40,639 nucleotides of DNA from the IMG/VR virus record IMGVR_UViG_3300038682_000059, positions 1 to 40,639 of that record; one strand, written 5' to 3'. Within the stretch, counting starts at the first letter, position 1; each line of letters begins with the position of its first letter. Below the pieces are notes generated by a model. That model saw only the letters and a list, made by a program, of their open reading frames with translations. It made no database searches and was not told the origin of the DNA. The DNA is from a virus. This document shows, piece by piece, positions 5,832 through 40,639 of this stretch. The position numbers and the translations under genes were made by a program.

Positions 5832-6875
5832 ATGTTAATTGATTACAATATGAGTAAAGACTACTGTTCTGACTGGACAGCTATCGATGCAATCCGCGAG
5901 ATTGTGCAGAATGCACTAGACTCTGGTAAAAAGTATGAGTGTGATGCTGATAAATATGAAATTGATGTTATCACTTATGATACAGTACTAACTCCACAAG
6001 TATTTTCTATGGGTGTAAGCCAGAAAGACGGTAAGAATGCTATCGGTAAATACGGTGAAGGTTTTAAAATTGTAATGTTAGTACTTACTCGCTTGAATCT
6101 TAATCCAGTTATCTTTACTGGTGACTTGATTGTTAAAGGTTTATTTAAGCAACATGAATTTACAGGTATTGAAACTTTCTGCCTTGAGATACACAAAGAG
6201 CAATCACCAACTAAGGACACTCAGTTTATTTGTAAAGGTGAAGGTATTGACATTAGCGAGCTAGAAGCTAAAGTTACACCTTTTAATAAAGAACCAATGA
6301 AAATACCAGACAACATAAACATTATTCAAAACCGACCTGGCGAAGTATTTGTTAACGGTTTGTATGTTGCTAAAGAAGATTTAGTATTCGGTTATAACTT
6401 TGCACCTAATAAGATTAAACTTAATCGCGACCGTAATATGGTTGATGGTGTTCATTGGCAGTTAGCTAAATACTTCTCAGACTTAGGTGTTAAGCATGCT
6501 GAGACTATTTTCCACCTTATTGAACGTGATGCACCAGATGTACGTGATTTAAGTTATTATTTGTACGACGATAAACTAAAAGCAGAATTAGCTCGTTTAT
6601 TCTATAATAAGTATGGTGATGGTGCTAAGATAGCTAAACCTGGTACAAGCTACTATGGTGGTTCAGGTAACGTTAGCGTTAGTTCATCTGCTTCACGTGT
6701 ATATTCAAAATGTGGTGTACAAGAAGCGAAGAAAGTAGCAGACCCAGATGCACCTGACCAAGTGTTAGCAACATGGCTCAACGACAATCGTAAGAAACTA
6801 CGTCGAGATGTTCGTAACAGTCTTGACACAGTAATTACTCGCTCAAAAGGTTGGCGTAAAGCTGACATATTATAG
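5832..6875 (+). CDS. GHKL-fold ATPase of unknown function, 347 aa
   Basis: First gene of a new transcription unit, AGGA 8 bases upstream. The N-terminal half carries the Bergerat (GHKL: gyrase, Hsp90, histidine kinase, MutL) signatures. The N-box is REIVQNALDSG with E24, N27 and D30; the glycine lid is AIGKYGEGFK at residues 70-79. The usual DxGxG of the G1 box is degenerate. After ~residue 230 there is no recognisable kinase, topoisomerase or MutL C-terminus. The tail has a Ser/Gly linker (SGNVSVSSSASR) followed by a charged helical end. Similar stand-alone proteins are annotated in phages without known function. Possible roles are host takeover, chaperoning or counter-defence. Confidence 0.82.
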   Translation: MLIDYNMSKDYCSDWTAIDAIREIVQNALDSGKKYECDADKYEIDVITYDTVLTPQVFSMGVSQKDGKNAIGKYGEGFKIVMLVLTRLNLNPVIFTGDLIVKGLFKQHEFTGIETFCLEIHKEQSPTKDTQFICKGEGIDISELEAKVTPFNKEPMKIPDNINIIQNRPGEVFVNGLYVAKEDLVFGYNFAPNKIKLNRDRNMVDGVHWQLAKYFSDLGVKHAETIFHLIERDAPDVRDLSYYLYDDKLKAELARLFYNKYGDGAKIAKPGTSYYGGSGNVSVSSSASRVYSKCGVQEAKKVADPDAPDQVLATWLNDNRKKLRRDVRNSLDTVITRSKGWRKADIL

Positions 6876-8166: not shown

Positions 8167-8595
8167 ATGACACGTATAAATACAATCCCACCTGAACAAC
8201 TTACTGACCAGCATTTATTTGCTGAGTTTCGTGAGATTACTCGAGTATCTTCATTAGCACGCCCACTAACTAAACGTGAGCAAGTTGCTGAATATACCAT
8301 GGGTACTGGCCATGTTAAATTCTTCTATGATAAAGGTTTATTCCTTGCTAAACGTTTAGAGCAGCTTCAAGCTGAATTAGACAAGCGTGGTAACATTGCC
8401 TATACTGCTAAGACTTACAAGCCTCATGCTGATGGTCTTAACAATGATTGGCAACCTGACTCTAAAGCTCATTTAACTAACCTTATTCGATTGGATTCAA
8501 AAGTACGTGAACGTCCTGAGTTCTATCGCTATTATAGCAAACCTGTGCAAACAGATATTTATTTAAATTTAATTAAGCAAACTACTGCAAACTAG
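8167..8595 (+). CDS. denV: Pyrimidine-dimer DNA glycosylase / endonuclease V, 142 aa
   Basis: Strong resemblance to T4 endonuclease V. The protein starts MTRIN with the catalytic Thr2 (after Met removal) and Arg3. Arg22, Glu23 and Arg26 align with the T4 residues that bind and cut the dimer (AEFREITR against AEYRELPR). GTGHVKFFYDK matches the T4 GAGHVTFFYDK segment, and RPEFYRYYSK matches the T4 C-terminal RPTWYKYYGK. The length (142 against 138) fits. It removes cyclobutane dimers and nicks the abasic site, repairing UV damage, which fits a phage exposed to light. It heads a unit shared with the ssDNA-binding protein, with a 10-base gap. Confidence 0.93.
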   Translation: MTRINTIPPEQLTDQHLFAEFREITRVSSLARPLTKREQVAEYTMGTGHVKFFYDKGLFLAKRLEQLQAELDKRGNIAYTAKTYKPHADGLNNDWQPDSKAHLTNLIRLDSKVRERPEFYRYYSKPVQTDIYLNLIKQTTAN

Positions 8596-9330: not shown

Positions 9331-9525
9331 ATGAGTTATAACAATCTACCTGATAATTGCCAAGATAATAATCCCAACTATCCTTGGAATCAAGAAGACG
9401 AGCCCACTTGTCCTGAGTGTGACTCACCTCTCATTATAAACTGCTCCGACAAGTACTGCACCGATATTGAGTGTAGTGAGTGCGACTATTCTTTTTATAC
9501 GGATAACTTCGATGACTATTTATAA
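9331..9525 (+). CDS. Zinc-ribbon protein, 64 aa
   Basis: GAAGGAG lies 6-7 bases before the ATG. The protein is short and very acidic, with CPEC (residues 27-30) and a second pair CSEC (48-51), plus Cys residues at about 38 and 43: a two-knuckle zinc ribbon. Its last 14 bases overlap the DNA polymerase start, so the two are likely co-translated. It could be a polymerase accessory protein or a transcription modulator. No family recognised. Confidence 0.75.
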   Translation: MSYNNLPDNCQDNNPNYPWNQEDEPTCPECDSPLIINCSDKYCTDIECSECDYSFYTDNFDDYL

Positions 9526-11242
9526 ACTAACTAAACTTGAAGAAATTCAGGTTGATTCAACACAACCTTTATTCTGCGATACAGAGACCTGTGGTCTTTA
9601 TGGTCGCGTTCGATTACTTCAATGTTATCAAGCCGATTGGACTTATGTATTATTAGTTGAGTGGCCCAATCCTATTCAATTAGCTGCATTCTTAATGCAA
9701 AACTATACTGTATGGCATAATGCGCATTATGATATTACAACTGTTCAACAACAAACTAATACTCGTATTGTACCGCCTAAGTTTGATGATACATTCTTAC
9801 TATCACGATTAGCTCAGCCTCAATATGAGACCTACAGCTTAGATGATGTTATGGCTCGTACCTTAGGCAAAGACCCTTATGTAGAAGCTGGACTTGACAA
9901 GAAAATCCTACAGAAGTCAGATTGGTCAAAACCTAAGCTAACTGAAGACCAACTATTATACGCAGCTATTGATGTTAAATACATGCCTGAAGTATGGGCA
10001 GACGTGAGTCCAGCGTTAGACGAACCATCATACGTCCTTGATAAGTCTAGTCTTTGTACTGCATTAGACTTTCAGTGGAATGGTATGCCAGTAAATCAGG
10101 ACCTTGTTAATTCTGAGTATACTCGTATTAATAAAGAGTTGTCTGCAATCCCTATGCCAATCAATGCGAACTCTTGGCAGCAAGTACGTAAGTGGCTAAA
10201 TGTAGACCAGTCAGATAAAAAGTTCCTATCTGAGTTAGCTCTACGTGGTAATGATAAAGCTCGTGCAGTTCTTGATGTACGTTCACGACGTAAACTACTT
10301 AGCTTCCTCGAGAAATATGACCACGAAATGATTGTTGGTAAGTTCAAACCTTCAGCACGTTCAGGTCGTTTTACTTCTGATGATGAAAACTTACAACAAA
10401 TTCCTCGTGCCTTGAAAGGTATCTTTGGACATGAGAAAGATGGTGACCGTGTATTAATCTATTCTGATTACGCTCAGCTTGAGCTTCGTACTATCTGTGC
10501 TATTTTAGGTGTAGAAGTTATGGAGCGTATGTTCCGAGAAGGTGTTGACTTGCATGGTTATGTAGCATCAGTATTATTCGGCGAGAATTATGAGAAAAAA
10601 GACCGCCAAGTTACTAAGACCTATAACTTCAACTTGTTGTATGGTGGCTCTGTTGGTATGGTTCTTAGTATTTTGATTACTTATGGTTTACTTATCGAAG
10701 AACGATTAGCTAATCGACATAAACGCAAGTGGCTAAACTTATTTAAAGAAATCGATAAGTGGCAACAAGAGCAGATTAGTGCTTGGCGTAAAGGTAAACT
10801 TGGTACAACTCCATTAGGTCGTCAATACAAAGGTAAACTAATGACTGACCAAATGAACATCAAGAACCAAGGTGCAGGTGCCGAGGTAGCTAAGTTAGCT
10901 TTACATTACTTCTATCCTAAACTAAAAGAGTTCAATGAGACTCATGCACAGAATGTAGAACTAATTGTAGAAACACACCCTGAAACAGCTTTATGTAACT
11001 TCATTCACGATAGTTATATTCTTGATGCACCAAATGACCCAGCAATTTATGAACCTGTTGCTAAGATGTTAGCAGAGTGTATGCAACTTGCTTGGTTTGA
11101 AATGAGTAAACTCTATAAAATTACAGACCTTCCAATGCCTATCGATGTACGTGTTGGTAATAACTGGGGTGATATTGAGAATGACATTTTTATGTGGCAG
11201 TATGAACTTCAAGACTACGAAATGTTAGTAGAAGTATCATAA
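9512..11242 (+). CDS. Family A DNA polymerase with 3'-5' exonuclease, 576 aa
   Basis: The ATG at 9512 is preferred over a TTG at 9467. The exonuclease domain has D23 and E25 (FCDTETCG), an N...D motif (VWHNAHYDI) and YAAID, the DEDDy proofreading set. The polymerase domain has motif A SDYAQLELR with D319, motif B R365, K369 and F373 in RQVTKTYNFNLLYG, and motif C FIHDSYIL with D500. Motif C is HDS rather than the usual HDE. Phe at the position equivalent to E. coli F762 is the ancestral state. At 576 residues it is shorter than T7 gp5 and has no 5' nuclease domain. It is the replicative polymerase and would work with the SF3 primase-helicase. Confidence 0.94.
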   Translation: MTIYKLTKLEEIQVDSTQPLFCDTETCGLYGRVRLLQCYQADWTYVLLVEWPNPIQLAAFLMQNYTVWHNAHYDITTVQQQTNTRIVPPKFDDTFLLSRLAQPQYETYSLDDVMARTLGKDPYVEAGLDKKILQKSDWSKPKLTEDQLLYAAIDVKYMPEVWADVSPALDEPSYVLDKSSLCTALDFQWNGMPVNQDLVNSEYTRINKELSAIPMPINANSWQQVRKWLNVDQSDKKFLSELALRGNDKARAVLDVRSRRKLLSFLEKYDHEMIVGKFKPSARSGRFTSDDENLQQIPRALKGIFGHEKDGDRVLIYSDYAQLELRTICAILGVEVMERMFREGVDLHGYVASVLFGENYEKKDRQVTKTYNFNLLYGGSVGMVLSILITYGLLIEERLANRHKRKWLNLFKEIDKWQQEQISAWRKGKLGTTPLGRQYKGKLMTDQMNIKNQGAGAEVAKLALHYFYPKLKEFNETHAQNVELIVETHPETALCNFIHDSYILDAPNDPAIYEPVAKMLAECMQLAWFEMSKLYKITDLPMPIDVRVGNNWGDIENDIFMWQYELQDYEMLVEVS

Positions 11243-11330: not shown

Positions 11331-12134
11331 ATGCAGCAGTTTGAAAAAGACTACGCTAAACTAATAACTAAGATTCTTCAATCTGGTGAAGTTCGCAAAA
11401 CGCGTAATGGTGAAACACGTTCTATCTTTGGTGAGATGTTAACTATACCAATGAATGGTATTGAGACTTTCCCAATCCTTCAAGGTCGTCGTATGTATTT
11501 CAAAGGCGTGTTCGGTGAACTTGCAGCTATGTTACGTAAGCCGAAATCTTTAGCTGACTTCGAAGCTTGGGGTTGTAATTACTGGAAACTATGGGCTAAA
11601 GAAGACGGTTCAATTAATGTTGACTATGGTAATGCGTGGCATGCTGATGGACAAATTGAAAAACTAAAGGATTCACTTGCTAACAATCCTACCGACCGTC
11701 GTATGATTATTAATGGTTGGCGCCCAGGTAACCTTGAAGAACTTGACTTACCTTGTTGTCACTTACTATATCAGTTTTATGTCCGCGATGGTAAATATCT
11801 AGACATAATGTGGTACCAGCGTTCAGTAGACACCATGATTGGTTTACCTTCTGATATTGTATTCGCTGCAGCATGGTTAATTGCAATAGCTAATGAATTT
11901 GGTTATGAGACCGGCGAAATTAAAATGTCTCTTGGTGATTGTCACATATACGCTGAACATTATGAAGCAGCTAAGCAATATGTAGCTAATGTAGAAACTG
12001 CACCATTTGACCGTTACCCGACTTATATGTATACACCAAAGGTTGGTAAAGACTTCTGTGAGTTTGAACCGTCTGATATTGTATTGAGCGTATACCCTTC
12101 ACATCCTAAACTTAACTTGGAGTTAAAAGCATAA
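11331..12134 (+). CDS. Thymidylate-synthase homologue, predicted dCMP-specific, 267 aa
   Basis: Clearly of the ThyA fold: E63 (GELAAML), W85, the arginine pair in DRRMIINGW, catalytic Cys143 in LPCCHLLYQFYV, R164 in QRSVD, and GDCHIYAEH with H205 and Y207. The key difference is GLPSD: Asp175 stands where ThyA has the Asn (E. coli N177) that recognises the uracil ring. T4 dCMP hydroxymethylase has Asp at this site, and Asn-to-Asp in ThyA switches preference to dCMP. I therefore predict a dCMP hydroxymethylase or dCMP methylase, not a dTMP synthase. The conserved Trp and a DHFR gene at 38821 lean slightly to methylation. The next gene, a MazG-like pyrophosphatase, could supply dCMP. The one-base stop/start overlap indicates co-expression. 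Confidence 0.85.
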   Translation: MQQFEKDYAKLITKILQSGEVRKTRNGETRSIFGEMLTIPMNGIETFPILQGRRMYFKGVFGELAAMLRKPKSLADFEAWGCNYWKLWAKEDGSINVDYGNAWHADGQIEKLKDSLANNPTDRRMIINGWRPGNLEELDLPCCHLLYQFYVRDGKYLDIMWYQRSVDTMIGLPSDIVFAAAWLIAIANEFGYETGEIKMSLGDCHIYAEHYEAAKQYVANVETAPFDRYPTYMYTPKVGKDFCEFEPSDIVLSVYPSHPKLNLELKA

Positions 12135-12721
12135 TGACTGATATTAATCTTGGCCACGCATTTGAACGTGTATCAAACTGGAATTCAAAGCGTTACGACC
12201 GTAAGTATGACCACAAGCTAAGTGTTGCTTTGTTAGAAGAAGAACTACAAGAATACTTTGATGCTAATACATTAGTTGACCAACTTGATGCTATGTGTGA
12301 CGTAGTATACGTTGCTATGGGTATTCTTTGGAAAATTGATGTTGACAATGAAACTCTAGAGTATAATGCTATGGAATCTCATCGTCAAATGGCGGACTTA
12401 CTTAAGACTAACACATTTGAGCCTGTATATTTTGCTTATGCTGTATTACAACAATATAAGCACGACAACGATTATCCAGTAGCACTTGCTGCTCAAATGA
12501 TGATTACTCTTTGTATGACTCAAATGAATGCTATGGGCCTAAGTACTCTTGACTCACTTGAAGCTTTACTTGTTGTTTGCGATAGTAATGATTCTAAGTC
12601 TATTAAGAAAACAGCAGCACATCTTAAAGCAAATGATGGCGATAAAGGTGTTTACTTTATACCACCTGAGCCGCGACTAAAAGCAATTTTAGCTAAAGTG
12701 GAGACACGACATGGCAACTAA
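12134..12721 (+). CDS. MazG-like NTP pyrophosphohydrolase, possible dCTPase, 195 aa
   Basis: Starts one base inside the previous stop codon; GGAG is 12 bases upstream. Residues 34-63 hold the all-alpha NTP-PPase pattern: LLEEELQEYF with acidic E35-E37 and E40, then DQLDAMCDVVYVAMG with D49, D52 and D56, the two metal-binding helices of MazG/dUTPase-type enzymes. Helical segments follow to residue ~170. Such enzymes cleave dNTPs to dNMP and pyrophosphate. Sitting between a predicted dCMP-specific synthase homologue and a deaminase fusion, a dCTP (or dCTP/dUTP) specificity like T4 gp56 is a reasonable inference but cannot be read from sequence. Confidence 0.78.
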   Translation: MTDINLGHAFERVSNWNSKRYDRKYDHKLSVALLEEELQEYFDANTLVDQLDAMCDVVYVAMGILWKIDVDNETLEYNAMESHRQMADLLKTNTFEPVYFAYAVLQQYKHDNDYPVALAAQMMITLCMTQMNAMGLSTLDSLEALLVVCDSNDSKSIKKTAAHLKANDGDKGVYFIPPEPRLKAILAKVETRHGN

Positions 12722-13313
12722 GGATATTGTACCTTATGTATTAGCTGAAGCAGCTAAGTCTAATGTAGACAAACGTAAAGTAGGTTGTGTAATTACAGAC
12801 CGTTCTGGTTCTATAGTTGCAGCTGGTCGTAATGCCTCATTTGACGATGATGAAACACCTGATATTCATGCTGAAGATATGGCATGCCAAGAGTTTGAAG
12901 AAAAAGACATTGATTCTTCTCGTGGTCCATTTACTGCTTGGGTGTCTCAACCACCTTGTCCAGCCTGTGCTACTCAATTGCTTGACACAGGTATTACGAA
13001 CATCGAAGTTGTTGAAGCGTTTCTAAAGTTTGACGGTGACAAATTACGTCCAGACTTAATTCCACCATCAGCAATACGAGCTCTTGCAGAAGTATTAACG
13101 TTTGGTGCACGCAAGTATAAACCAAACAATTGGCGTAAGTGCGCCGATATGGATAGATATGAAGCGGCTTTGTTACGTCATATACTTTCTTATCAAGAAG
13201 GTGAAACACATGACCAAGAATCTGGTATGCCACACTTATGGCATGCAATGACTAATTTAGCTTTCATGATTGAGTTAGATGGTAAGTCGAAAAACAAGAT
13301 TAAGATTGATTAA
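12711..13313 (+). CDS. Cytidine/dCMP deaminase fused to dATP/dGTP-diphosphohydrolase-like domain, 200 aa
   Basis: The N-terminal ~105 residues are a zinc deaminase: KVGCVITDRSGSIVAAGRN, then HAE (H53, E55), then PPCPAC (C83, C86). The C-terminal part, from D108 (FDGDKLRPDLIPPSAI) to ~D190, matches the phage family annotated as dATP/dGTP diphosphohydrolase N-terminal domain (DUF5664), with TFGARKYKPNNW, RH157 and DQESGMPHLWHA. GGAG precedes the ATG and the gene overlaps its neighbour by 11 bases. Both halves keep their signature residues, so this is a true fusion with no frame break. It links dC(MP) deamination with purine-dNTP hydrolysis in one protein and ends the cassette. Confidence 0.85.
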   Translation: MATKDIVPYVLAEAAKSNVDKRKVGCVITDRSGSIVAAGRNASFDDDETPDIHAEDMACQEFEEKDIDSSRGPFTAWVSQPPCPACATQLLDTGITNIEVVEAFLKFDGDKLRPDLIPPSAIRALAEVLTFGARKYKPNNWRKCADMDRYEAALLRHILSYQEGETHDQESGMPHLWHAMTNLAFMIELDGKSKNKIKID

Positions 13314-37186: not shown

Positions 37187-38824
37187 ATGCAGAATTTACG
37201 AATTACAGAAGAGCAGTTTAATGAGCTCTATCCTGACTTAGAAGGTTATTATGGCTTCTTCGACAACCCTCCGCCGGCGGGACTATCCTCCGAAGAATTT
37301 GAGCGTCGTTACTTAAGTAGTAAATTATGGCGACTGAACAATCTTTACTACGTTATCGATAAGTACGGTAAGCCAGTAGTATTCAGAATGAACTACGCGC
37401 AACATAAAGTGTATGCAGCAACAAGAGAGCATCCACGTGTTATTATATTAAAGTCACGACAACAAGGTATTTCTACATTCTGGCTTGTATGTTACTTCGA
37501 CGATGCAGTGTTTGCACCGTTTATGAATATTGGTCTTATGGCACAAGGTACAGATGAAGCATCAACACTACTTGAAAGAACTAAGTTTCTATGGGACATG
37601 TTAAATGAAGATGTTAAACGCTTCATTGGCGTACGCCTAGAGAAAGATAACACCAAAGAGTTCTCATTTAGTAATGGCTCAACTATATTTATTCGCGTAT
37701 CATTCCGTTCTACAACGCTACAGAGACTTCATATCTCAGAAATGGGTAAAATAGCTAATATGTACCCTAAACGAGCTAAAGAGGTTAAGACTGGTACGCT
37801 TCAAGCATTAGCTAAAGGTAATACCGGAGCCATCGAGAGTACGGCTGAAGGTAAGAACATGTTTAAGGACATGTGGGAAGAGTCTGTATTAGCTCATAAC
37901 TCTGGTCAAATGACGCCTAAGGATTTCATGCCAATATTCCTCTCGTGGTTAGACGACCCAGATTGCCTCTTAGATGTGAACCAAGCTGTAGATGAAGAGG
38001 CACAAACTTACTTCGATGAACTTGAGATGAAGACCGGACGCAAATTAACGCGTAAGCAGAAGAACTTCTGGGTAGCACAACGACGTGAGCTTGGTGGTGA
38101 CATATTCCAGGAATACCCAGGTACACCTGAAGAAGCATTTACTGCGTCACGTGACGGTACATTCTATGCGCGACAGTTCAATGAAGAAGTAGTTCGCAAA
38201 GGTAACGTTCAACAAGGTCTATATGACGAGAATTTACCCGTTGATGTGTATGTTGACCTCGGTGTCGATGACTACTTTGTATTAGCTTTCGTACAATGGT
38301 ACCGCGGTAAATGGCGTGTCATAGCTGAATATTGGAATAACGGTTATGCATTAGCTCATTATATGGACTATATCAGAGACAGTGGATATGACGTAAGAGC
38401 TGTTAGATTCCCACATGATATTAAAGTGCGTGAACTTGGGACAGCTAAAGGTGGAGGCCGCGCGAAAAGCCGTTATGATGTAGCACTTGAGTACAAGAAA
38501 GAGAATGATCTTATGTGGCGCTTAGATGTGTTGCCAAGAGCGAGTATTGACAACGGTATCGAAGCTGTTCGTCGTATCATACCTAATCTTATGGTGGATG
38601 CTTCTTGTAAGTATATAATTGACTGTTTCCTTAATTATAGTAAAGAGTGGGACGAAAAACTTCAATGCTGGAAGACAACTCCTGTACATGATGAGTATTC
38701 TCACGGTGCTGACGTTCTTCGACAGCTCGCAGGTAACACGATAGAAAGTGCGGAACAGCACCAGTCGAAACTGGAAACGTTCTATGGACACAGACAGTCA
38801 AACACAGGTGGATTTGCACTATGA
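37187..38824 (+). CDS. terL: Terminase large subunit, 545 aa
   Basis: N-terminal packaging ATPase: an adenine-binding segment, Walker A KSRQQGIST (residues 89-97), Walker B LHISE (181-185) and the coupling motif ESTAEGKN (~217-224). C-terminal RNase-H-like nuclease: D357 in VYVDLGVDD and a later acidic site in HDEYSHGADVLRQL. Its class (P22/Sf6-like or other headful) cannot be settled by eye. It powers DNA entry through the portal and cuts the concatemer. A four-base overlap couples it to the DHFR gene. Confidence 0.93.
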   Translation: MQNLRITEEQFNELYPDLEGYYGFFDNPPPAGLSSEEFERRYLSSKLWRLNNLYYVIDKYGKPVVFRMNYAQHKVYAATREHPRVIILKSRQQGISTFWLVCYFDDAVFAPFMNIGLMAQGTDEASTLLERTKFLWDMLNEDVKRFIGVRLEKDNTKEFSFSNGSTIFIRVSFRSTTLQRLHISEMGKIANMYPKRAKEVKTGTLQALAKGNTGAIESTAEGKNMFKDMWEESVLAHNSGQMTPKDFMPIFLSWLDDPDCLLDVNQAVDEEAQTYFDELEMKTGRKLTRKQKNFWVAQRRELGGDIFQEYPGTPEEAFTASRDGTFYARQFNEEVVRKGNVQQGLYDENLPVDVYVDLGVDDYFVLAFVQWYRGKWRVIAEYWNNGYALAHYMDYIRDSGYDVRAVRFPHDIKVRELGTAKGGGRAKSRYDVALEYKKENDLMWRLDVLPRASIDNGIEAVRRIIPNLMVDASCKYIIDCFLNYSKEWDEKLQCWKTTPVHDEYSHGADVLRQLAGNTIESAEQHQSKLETFYGHRQSNTGGFAL

Positions 38825-39231
38825 TTATACGACGCGAGCTAATAGTAGCAGTAGATGTAAACGGCGCTATAGGAAGTAAAGGTGGACTAGGTTTCTCATG
38901 CAAAGAGGATATGGCTTGGTTTAAGTGGTATACTATGGGTAAGACGTTACTATGTGGAAAGAACACATATACTACTATAGCTAATCTACCTGGACGAACT
39001 GTGAAACAACTAAGTAGAGGTGAGGAATACCCGGAGGGTTGTTATGTAGGAGGCGGGCAAGTATACTCTAGTGTAATTGGGATAGTAGATAGGGCTGTTG
39101 TGACATTCCTGAACACTGAGATAAAGAACGCGGATACATTCTTTGACTTGCGGGAACTTACACAGTTTGGGCAGAGTATGACTGTTAGGGATGAGTCGTG
39201 GGGACGTGTGGTCATTTATGAACGCTACTGA
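38821..39231 (+). CDS. Dihydrofolate reductase, 136 aa
   Basis: ATGA overlap with the terL stop. The DHFR signatures are IVAVDVNGAIGSKGGLGF (N-terminal strand with NGxIG), the Asp/Lys pair with MAWFKWYTMGKTLLCGKNTY, and CYVGGGQVYSSVI. At 136 residues it is shorter than E. coli DHFR (159), with compact loops. It converts dihydrofolate to tetrahydrofolate. As a thymidylate-synthase-type enzyme that methylates produces dihydrofolate, DHFR makes most sense if the enzyme at 11331 methylates; a hydroxymethylase would not need it. Its place at the end of a packaging operon is unusual. Confidence 0.9.
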   Translation: MIIRRELIVAVDVNGAIGSKGGLGFSCKEDMAWFKWYTMGKTLLCGKNTYTTIANLPGRTVKQLSRGEEYPEGCYVGGGQVYSSVIGIVDRAVVTFLNTEIKNADTFFDLRELTQFGQSMTVRDESWGRVVIYERY

Positions 39232-40622: not shown

Positions 40623-40639
40623 GATCGTGACTGGGAAAC
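40623..40639 (-). other. Amplification primer sequence at right contig end
   Basis: GATCGTGACTGGGAAAC is the exact reverse complement of positions 1-17. It marks an artificial end, so this 17-base inverted repeat must not be read as a phage terminal repeat. Confidence 0.93.

Follow-up and report, generated by a model that had tools for sequence, protein, structure and literature searches.

A predicted dCMP methylase cassette conserved across a clade of phages

The window analyzed here, a 40,639-nucleotide stretch of viral DNA (IMG/VR record IMGVR_UViG_3300038682_000059, positions 1 to 40,639), carries a three-gene cassette that we predict to produce 5-methyl-dCMP for building into the phage genome, giving virion DNA in which 5-methylcytosine (5mC) replaces much or all of the cytosine. 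We place the probability of this reading at roughly 0.6. The key enzyme is a ThyA homolog with an aspartate at the position where dUMP-specific thymidylate synthases (TS) have asparagine, set in an otherwise TS-like active site. To our knowledge, full replacement of cytosine by 5mC occurs in very few known phages, and the genes for it are poorly defined.

Organization and distribution of the cassette

The three ORFs lie on the plus strand exactly where the first-pass annotation had placed them, and their Pfam families agree with the gene types named there. ORF1 (11331-12134, 267 aa; PF00303, E 2.8e-55) encodes the ThyA-family enzyme, the predicted dCMP methylase. ORF2 (12134-12721, 195 aa; PF01503, PRA-PH/MazG, 4.9e-7) encodes an all-alpha NTP pyrophosphatase predicted to be a dCTPase/dUTPase, and ORF3 (12711-13313) a fusion of a dCMP deaminase (PF00383, 2.6e-11) and a dATP/dGTP diphosphohydrolase (PF18909, 5.8e-33). 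ORF1 and ORF2 overlap by 1 base and ORF2 and ORF3 by 11 bases. A family A DNA polymerase (9467-11242, plus strand; PF00476, 6.3e-31) lies directly upstream.

The cassette is not unique to the window but is conserved across a phage clade, in which the PolA-TS-pyrophosphatase-deaminase gene order recurs. For comparison, 80 loci were drawn from viral contigs. Among the 70 loci with sufficient downstream sequence, a deaminase is found near the TS gene in 44, the pyrophosphatase in 40 and the deaminase/diphosphohydrolase fusion in 26. Loci without the fusion often encode the deaminase as a protein of its own, together with a DUF6378-like protein, and in several clade members the deaminase is missing from the TS neighborhood. 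Similar gene sets have previously been linked to modified cytosine (PMC8670742).

Elsewhere in the window, a phrog_6077 protein of unknown function (5832-6875) occupies about the position of a gene annotated HATPase in Vibrio phage VPMS1. A pyrimidine dimer DNA glycosylase of the T4 DenV family (8167-8595; PF03013) is also present in VPMS1. Two paralogues of phrog_10459, a family of unknown function, are found one by each contig end (715-1200 and 39852-40316). The sequence GTTTCCCAGTCACGATC stands at both ends (1-17 and 40623-40639, inverted at the far end); it resembles a random-amplification primer tail, and the contig ends are therefore probably library sequence, not phage ends.

An aspartate switch in the ThyA homolog

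The PF00303 match, the TS fold and the catalytic Cys with its Arg/Tyr/His set place ORF1 in the thymidylate synthase superfamily. The first-pass annotation had proposed aligning a structure model of the enzyme to T4 gp42 and E. coli ThyA, and the model (pLDDT 94.5) matches E. coli TS with Z 33.5 and 1.5 Å over 255 residues. T4 dCH was not among the 50 structural matches listed for this model, which excludes nothing. The catalytic residues are all there (E63, W85, Y99, R123/R124, C143, S165, D167, H205 and Y207), whereas the C-terminus is divergent and lacks the PVAI tail of TS.

Asp175 (codon GAT, 11853-11855) aligns with E. coli Asn177 and with T4 gp42 Asp179, as had been claimed. Asn at this position (Ec177, in E. 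coli numbering) is the mark of dUMP-specific TS and is found in 80/80 canonical relatives. Asp is found instead in 86/87 members of the window clade, at identities as low as about 42%, as well as in 32/32 Kolga-type pelagiphage enzymes, the two sets sharing a few fragments. Such conservation indicates that Asp175 is no chance substitution. The change from Asn to Asp at Ec177 is a known dUMP-to-dCMP switch (PMC8670742; PMC6400193), and the switch to dCMP suggested by the first-pass annotation is thus supported. We conclude that dCMP is very probably the substrate of the ThyA homolog.

It is highly improbable that the enzyme is an ordinary dUMP thymidylate synthase that carries Asp by happenstance in a cassette that merely makes dTTP. 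The rest of the active site is indeed TS-like, the deaminase and the dUTPase-like fold of the second gene would supply dUMP, and the score against the NCBIfam TIGR03284 thymidylate synthase equivalog (129.4) exceeds the cut-off of 108.35, so automatic annotation likely says dTMP synthase. Against this stands the near invariance, in a diverse clade, of the very residue known to switch dUMP to dCMP. Asp-type genes routinely carry the label of an ordinary thymidylate synthase. The sole clade member with Asn at Ec177 (L066, 8304-9059) retains Asp at Ec93, has a dihydrofolate reductase (DHFR) gene nearby and no detected deaminase, and offers a naturally occurring control for reversion to dUMP.

The nearest annotated relatives of the enzyme are those of the Edwardsiella phages KF-1, IW-1, ETP-1 and ZHX (60% identity) and Dickeya phage Amaethon (58%), followed by Vibrio phage VPMS1 (53%) and Pseudoalteromonas phage PH1 (about 50%). 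When the diagnostic columns were left out of tree building, the window sequences grouped with the Kolga sequences (SH-aLRT 100), separate from the T4-like, Pamexvirus-like and canonical enzymes. As an AU test (p 0.76) rejected the grouping of the window clade neither with Pamexvirus nor with T4, the Asp switch could have arisen once or several times. A single TS gene was present per record in 31/31 and 14/14 tested records, some of them fragments, so that no second ThyA was found; no ThyX was found in 28 records searched, fragments again included.

Two further loci deserve mention. Vibrio phage VP-1 (Ackermannviridae; L112, 2001-2807) has an unannotated TS with Asp at Ec177 and a thymidylate kinase gene nearby, and its TS branches beside the window clade with support that is not strong. 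A gene annotated as a bifunctional DHFR-thymidylate synthase (MW202744, L027, 329-1339) matches neither PF00186 nor PF00303 and was set aside as a misannotation.

Active-site class and predicted product

In E. coli numbering, the window clade has the signature L143/H147/D177/W83, with W83 in 86/87 members and W80 retained as well. An invariant Asp stands at Ec93 in 87/87 window-clade and 32/32 Kolga-type enzymes, where canonical enzymes have V, I or another non-acidic residue. The window enzyme's own residues for this class are L140/H144/D175/D98/W88, Asp98 (Ec93) being the neighbor of the catalytic base Tyr99. Canonical thymidylate synthases (n = 80) read L143/H147/N177/W83, and T4-type hydroxymethylases (n = 80) D143/T147/D177 with W80 and V or I at 83 (80/80). 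Pamexvirus-like enzymes (n = 34) have N143 (33/34)/P147/D177, mostly F83 and mostly Ala at 93; the SPO1 dUMP hydroxymethylase has D/N/-/F at Ec 143/147/80/83.

The window enzyme thus has the Asp at Ec177 that T4-type and Xp12-type enzymes share, but none of their other marks: Leu140, His144 and Trp88 stand at the positions of the T4-type Asp at C-3 (T4 D145), Thr at C+1 and Val/Ile at Ec83, and the Xp12-type Asn143/Pro147 is likewise missing. Whereas His147 is replaced in both T4-type and Xp12-type enzymes, the window clade keeps it. A metagenomic study finds position 147 to differ between modified and unmodified contigs (PMC8670742). As the window clade has neither signature and an additional Asp at Ec93, it forms an active-site class of its own among predicted dCMP methylases.

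In T4 gp42, the water from which the hydroxyl derives is positioned and activated by Asp145, Ser94 and Tyr96; Val85 and Asp145 stand where E. coli TS has Trp and Leu, and D145N is inactive (PMC6400193). These hydroxymethylase marks are missing from the window enzyme and the TS residues for hydride transfer are kept, which favors 5-methylcytosine over 5-hydroxymethylcytosine. The first-pass annotation had named both bases; of the two, 5-methylcytosine is preferred here and 5-hydroxymethylcytosine disfavored. Engineered TS with the Asn-to-Asp change (N177D) yields 5-methyl-dCMP, according to work cited in PMC8670742, and an Asp177 in an otherwise TS-like site, as in the window enzyme, therefore predicts the same product. 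Given dCMP as substrate, the group transferred is likely methyl, not hydroxymethyl.

We consider a dCMP hydroxymethylase of the T4 kind, in which the methylene intermediate takes up water in place of hydride and 5-hydroxymethylcytosine ends up in the genome, to be unlikely. Asp175, the similarity of the cassette to T4 42/56/cd and the missing PVAI C-terminus would all suit such an enzyme, and the invariant Asp98 beside Tyr99 could place or activate water, a point that we count against a methylase. However, L143, H147 and W83 are TS-like where 80/80 T4-type enzymes have D, T and V or I, the window has no recognized glycosyltransferase, carbamoyltransferase or dNMP kinase, and several relatives have a DHFR gene beside the TS gene.

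Reductive methylation yields dihydrofolate and hydroxymethylation does not. DHFR would therefore be needed by a methylase and not by a hydroxymethylase, and its presence supports the former. The window encodes a DHFR of 136 aa (38821-39231, plus strand; PF00186, 8.7e-18; phrog_316, 2.2e-26) distant from the cassette. Among the relatives, DHFR abuts the Asp-type TS in five loci (L085 and L100-L103) and lies within the same cluster in two (L037 and L039). Only 3/31 records of the clade set have DHFR, which makes it supportive, not decisive; it would also serve a host TS. Further points count against a 5-methyl product: His147 is kept, the clade matches neither the T4-type nor the Pamexvirus-type signature, the PVAI tail is missing, and no 5-methyl-dCMP kinase was identified.

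The pyrophosphatase and the deaminase fusion

A model of the gene 2 protein (pLDDT 95.3) has its best structural matches among dimeric dUTPases, at Z 10-12, with unrelated rows below 6 and the PRA-PH, MazG and DR2231 folds at Z 4-6. Since helical folds may reach Z 10-12 by chance, we treat this match as moderate evidence. In a motif alignment the metal ligands EExxE...D (E36, E37, E40 and D56) are invariant. The protein occurs in 11/50,697 phage records, every one with this same TS, and a sequence search against the PDB gave no true match. T4 gp56 dCTPase matches Pfam dUTPase_2; hhalign gave no detectable sequence match between gene 2 and gp56 (E 0.34). The pyrophosphatase cores of gene 2 and the Pamexvirus-like phages align. 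As the dimeric-dUTPase fold is that of the superfamily of the T4 dCTPase, a T4-like logic is plausible here. The earlier reading of gene 2 as a possible dCTPase is thus reasonable, and we predict that it may act as a dCTPase or dUTPase.

The gene 3 protein combines an N-terminal dCMP deaminase domain, with its zinc site (H53-A-E55 and C83-P-A-C86), and a C-terminal PF18909 domain at residues about 106-194. The full-length fusion is also found in KF-1, IW-1, ETP-1, ZHX, Amaethon and PH1. The fusion of deaminase and dNTPase that had been proposed is thus present, with the difference that the diphosphohydrolase half is of the dATP/dGTP family and not of a dCTPase family. PHROGs families matching the PF18909 domain carry the label 'endolysin; inhibits RNA polymerase', apparently in error.

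The deaminase raises the possibility of a reversed dTMP route, in which 5-methyl-dCMP, the product of the enzyme, is converted straight to dTMP by the fused deaminase; dUMP would not be needed and the virion cytosine would be ordinary. T-even dCMP deaminases accept 5-methyl-dCMP, and the 44 loci counted above have a deaminase gene close to that of the enzyme. Nevertheless, Xp12-type phages have the same deaminase neighbor, yet Xp12 DNA is all-5mC; Asp-type TS together with deaminase is associated with modified DNA (PMC8670742); and the deaminase is not nearby in several clade members. We regard this route as improbable.

Proposed pathway to 5-methylcytosine DNA

For the preferred reading, in which 5-methyl-dCMP is made for the phage genome, we propose the following pathway. 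The gene 2 pyrophosphatase would hydrolyze dCTP, and dUTP as well, to dCMP (dUMP), removing the normal cytosine nucleotides. The ThyA homolog would bind dCMP, transfer the methylene from CH2-THF and reduce it, yielding 5-methyl-dCMP and dihydrofolate, as suggested by Asp175 in an otherwise TS-like site. DHFR, phage-encoded here and host-encoded in most relatives, would regenerate THF. Kinases, presumably of the host, would then supply 5-methyl-dCTP to the neighboring family A polymerase. Of the two halves of gene 3, the deaminase would turn some dCMP into dUMP for host dTMP synthesis, and the PF18909 domain would trim dATP/dGTP to balance the pools. The virion DNA would contain 5mC as in phage Xp12, an outcome that we somewhat favor, and would resist many restriction enzymes.

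A broader proposal, to which we give even odds, is that the window clade constitutes a natural dCMP methylase in its own right, one that recognizes cytosine in a distinct manner, marked by the retained His147 and the invariant Asp at Ec93 by the base Tyr. With the fused deaminase/diphosphohydrolase it would lead to whole-genome 5mC in small podoviruses, a widespread group, and in pelagiphages.

If the prediction is true, 5mC DNA is made by a large clade whose enzymes are annotated 'thymidylate synthase', among them those of KF-1, Amaethon, VPMS1 and PH1 and of pelagiphages such as Kolga, with consequences for restriction, for sequencing-based surveys and for bisulfite/APOBEC selections, and its enzyme would be a compact one for 5-methyl-dCMP production. 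Residue rules at Ec 83, 93, 143, 147 and 177 would separate methylases from hydroxymethylases and are open to mutation tests. The clade includes phages in culture, in which the 5mC claim can be tested.

Comparison with known systems

The T4 set of gp42, gp56 dCTPase and cd deaminase resembles the cassette in the TS-superfamily fold, the Asp at Ec177 and the logic of dCTP removal and dCMP modification, as the first-pass annotation had suggested; gp56 and gene 2 are linked by the dUTPase_2 match of the former and the modeled dimeric-dUTPase fold of the latter. Unlike T4, the window enzyme is without Asp145, Thr at C+1 and Val85, keeping Leu, His and Trp, and no glucosyltransferase was recognized in the window. 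The window clade falls outside the T4 hydroxymethylase type.

The MetaGPA study of sewage and coastal phages found Asp177 TS, PRA-PH and deaminase domains associated with modified cytosine (PMC8670742). The same Pfam domains occur together in its modified contigs and in the window, as does a DNA ligase (PF14743/PF01068) associated there. That study stresses position 147 besides 177; the window clade keeps His147.

Engineered TS N177D/N229D, reported to make 5-methyl-dCMP in work cited in PMC8670742, likewise has Asp in an otherwise TS active site. Unlike it, the window clade is natural, its C-terminus is divergent, and an extra Asp is invariant at Ec93.

Palindrome avoidance, considered as a sign of restriction-proof DNA, was uninformative (o/e about 0.9-1.0 in the clade and Pamexviruses alike), and the literature searched on KF-1, ETP-1, VPMS1, PH1 and Amaethon yielded no usable restriction digests.

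Phage Xp12 (MT664984), represented in our comparison by its relatives, has DNA in which all cytosines are 5mC, and AXL1 DNA resists most enzymes tested (PMC9206674; PMC7653180). The Pamexvirus-like phages AXL1, DLP4 and PaMx28, with their Xp12-type dCMP methylase, share Asp at Ec177 with the window. AXL1, DLP4 and the window genome each encode DHFR, dCMP deaminase, TS and a PRA-PH pyrophosphatase, adjacent in AXL1 and DLP4, with DHFR distant in the window. The TS enzymes are about 25% identical and differ at the diagnostic positions, with Leu, His, Trp and Asp in the window enzyme versus Asn 143, Pro 147, mostly Phe 83 and mostly Ala 93. Xp12 and its Pamexvirus-like relatives thus appear to be the nearest functional parallel, and the window clade, though not a member by signature, probably works most like the Pamexvirus type.
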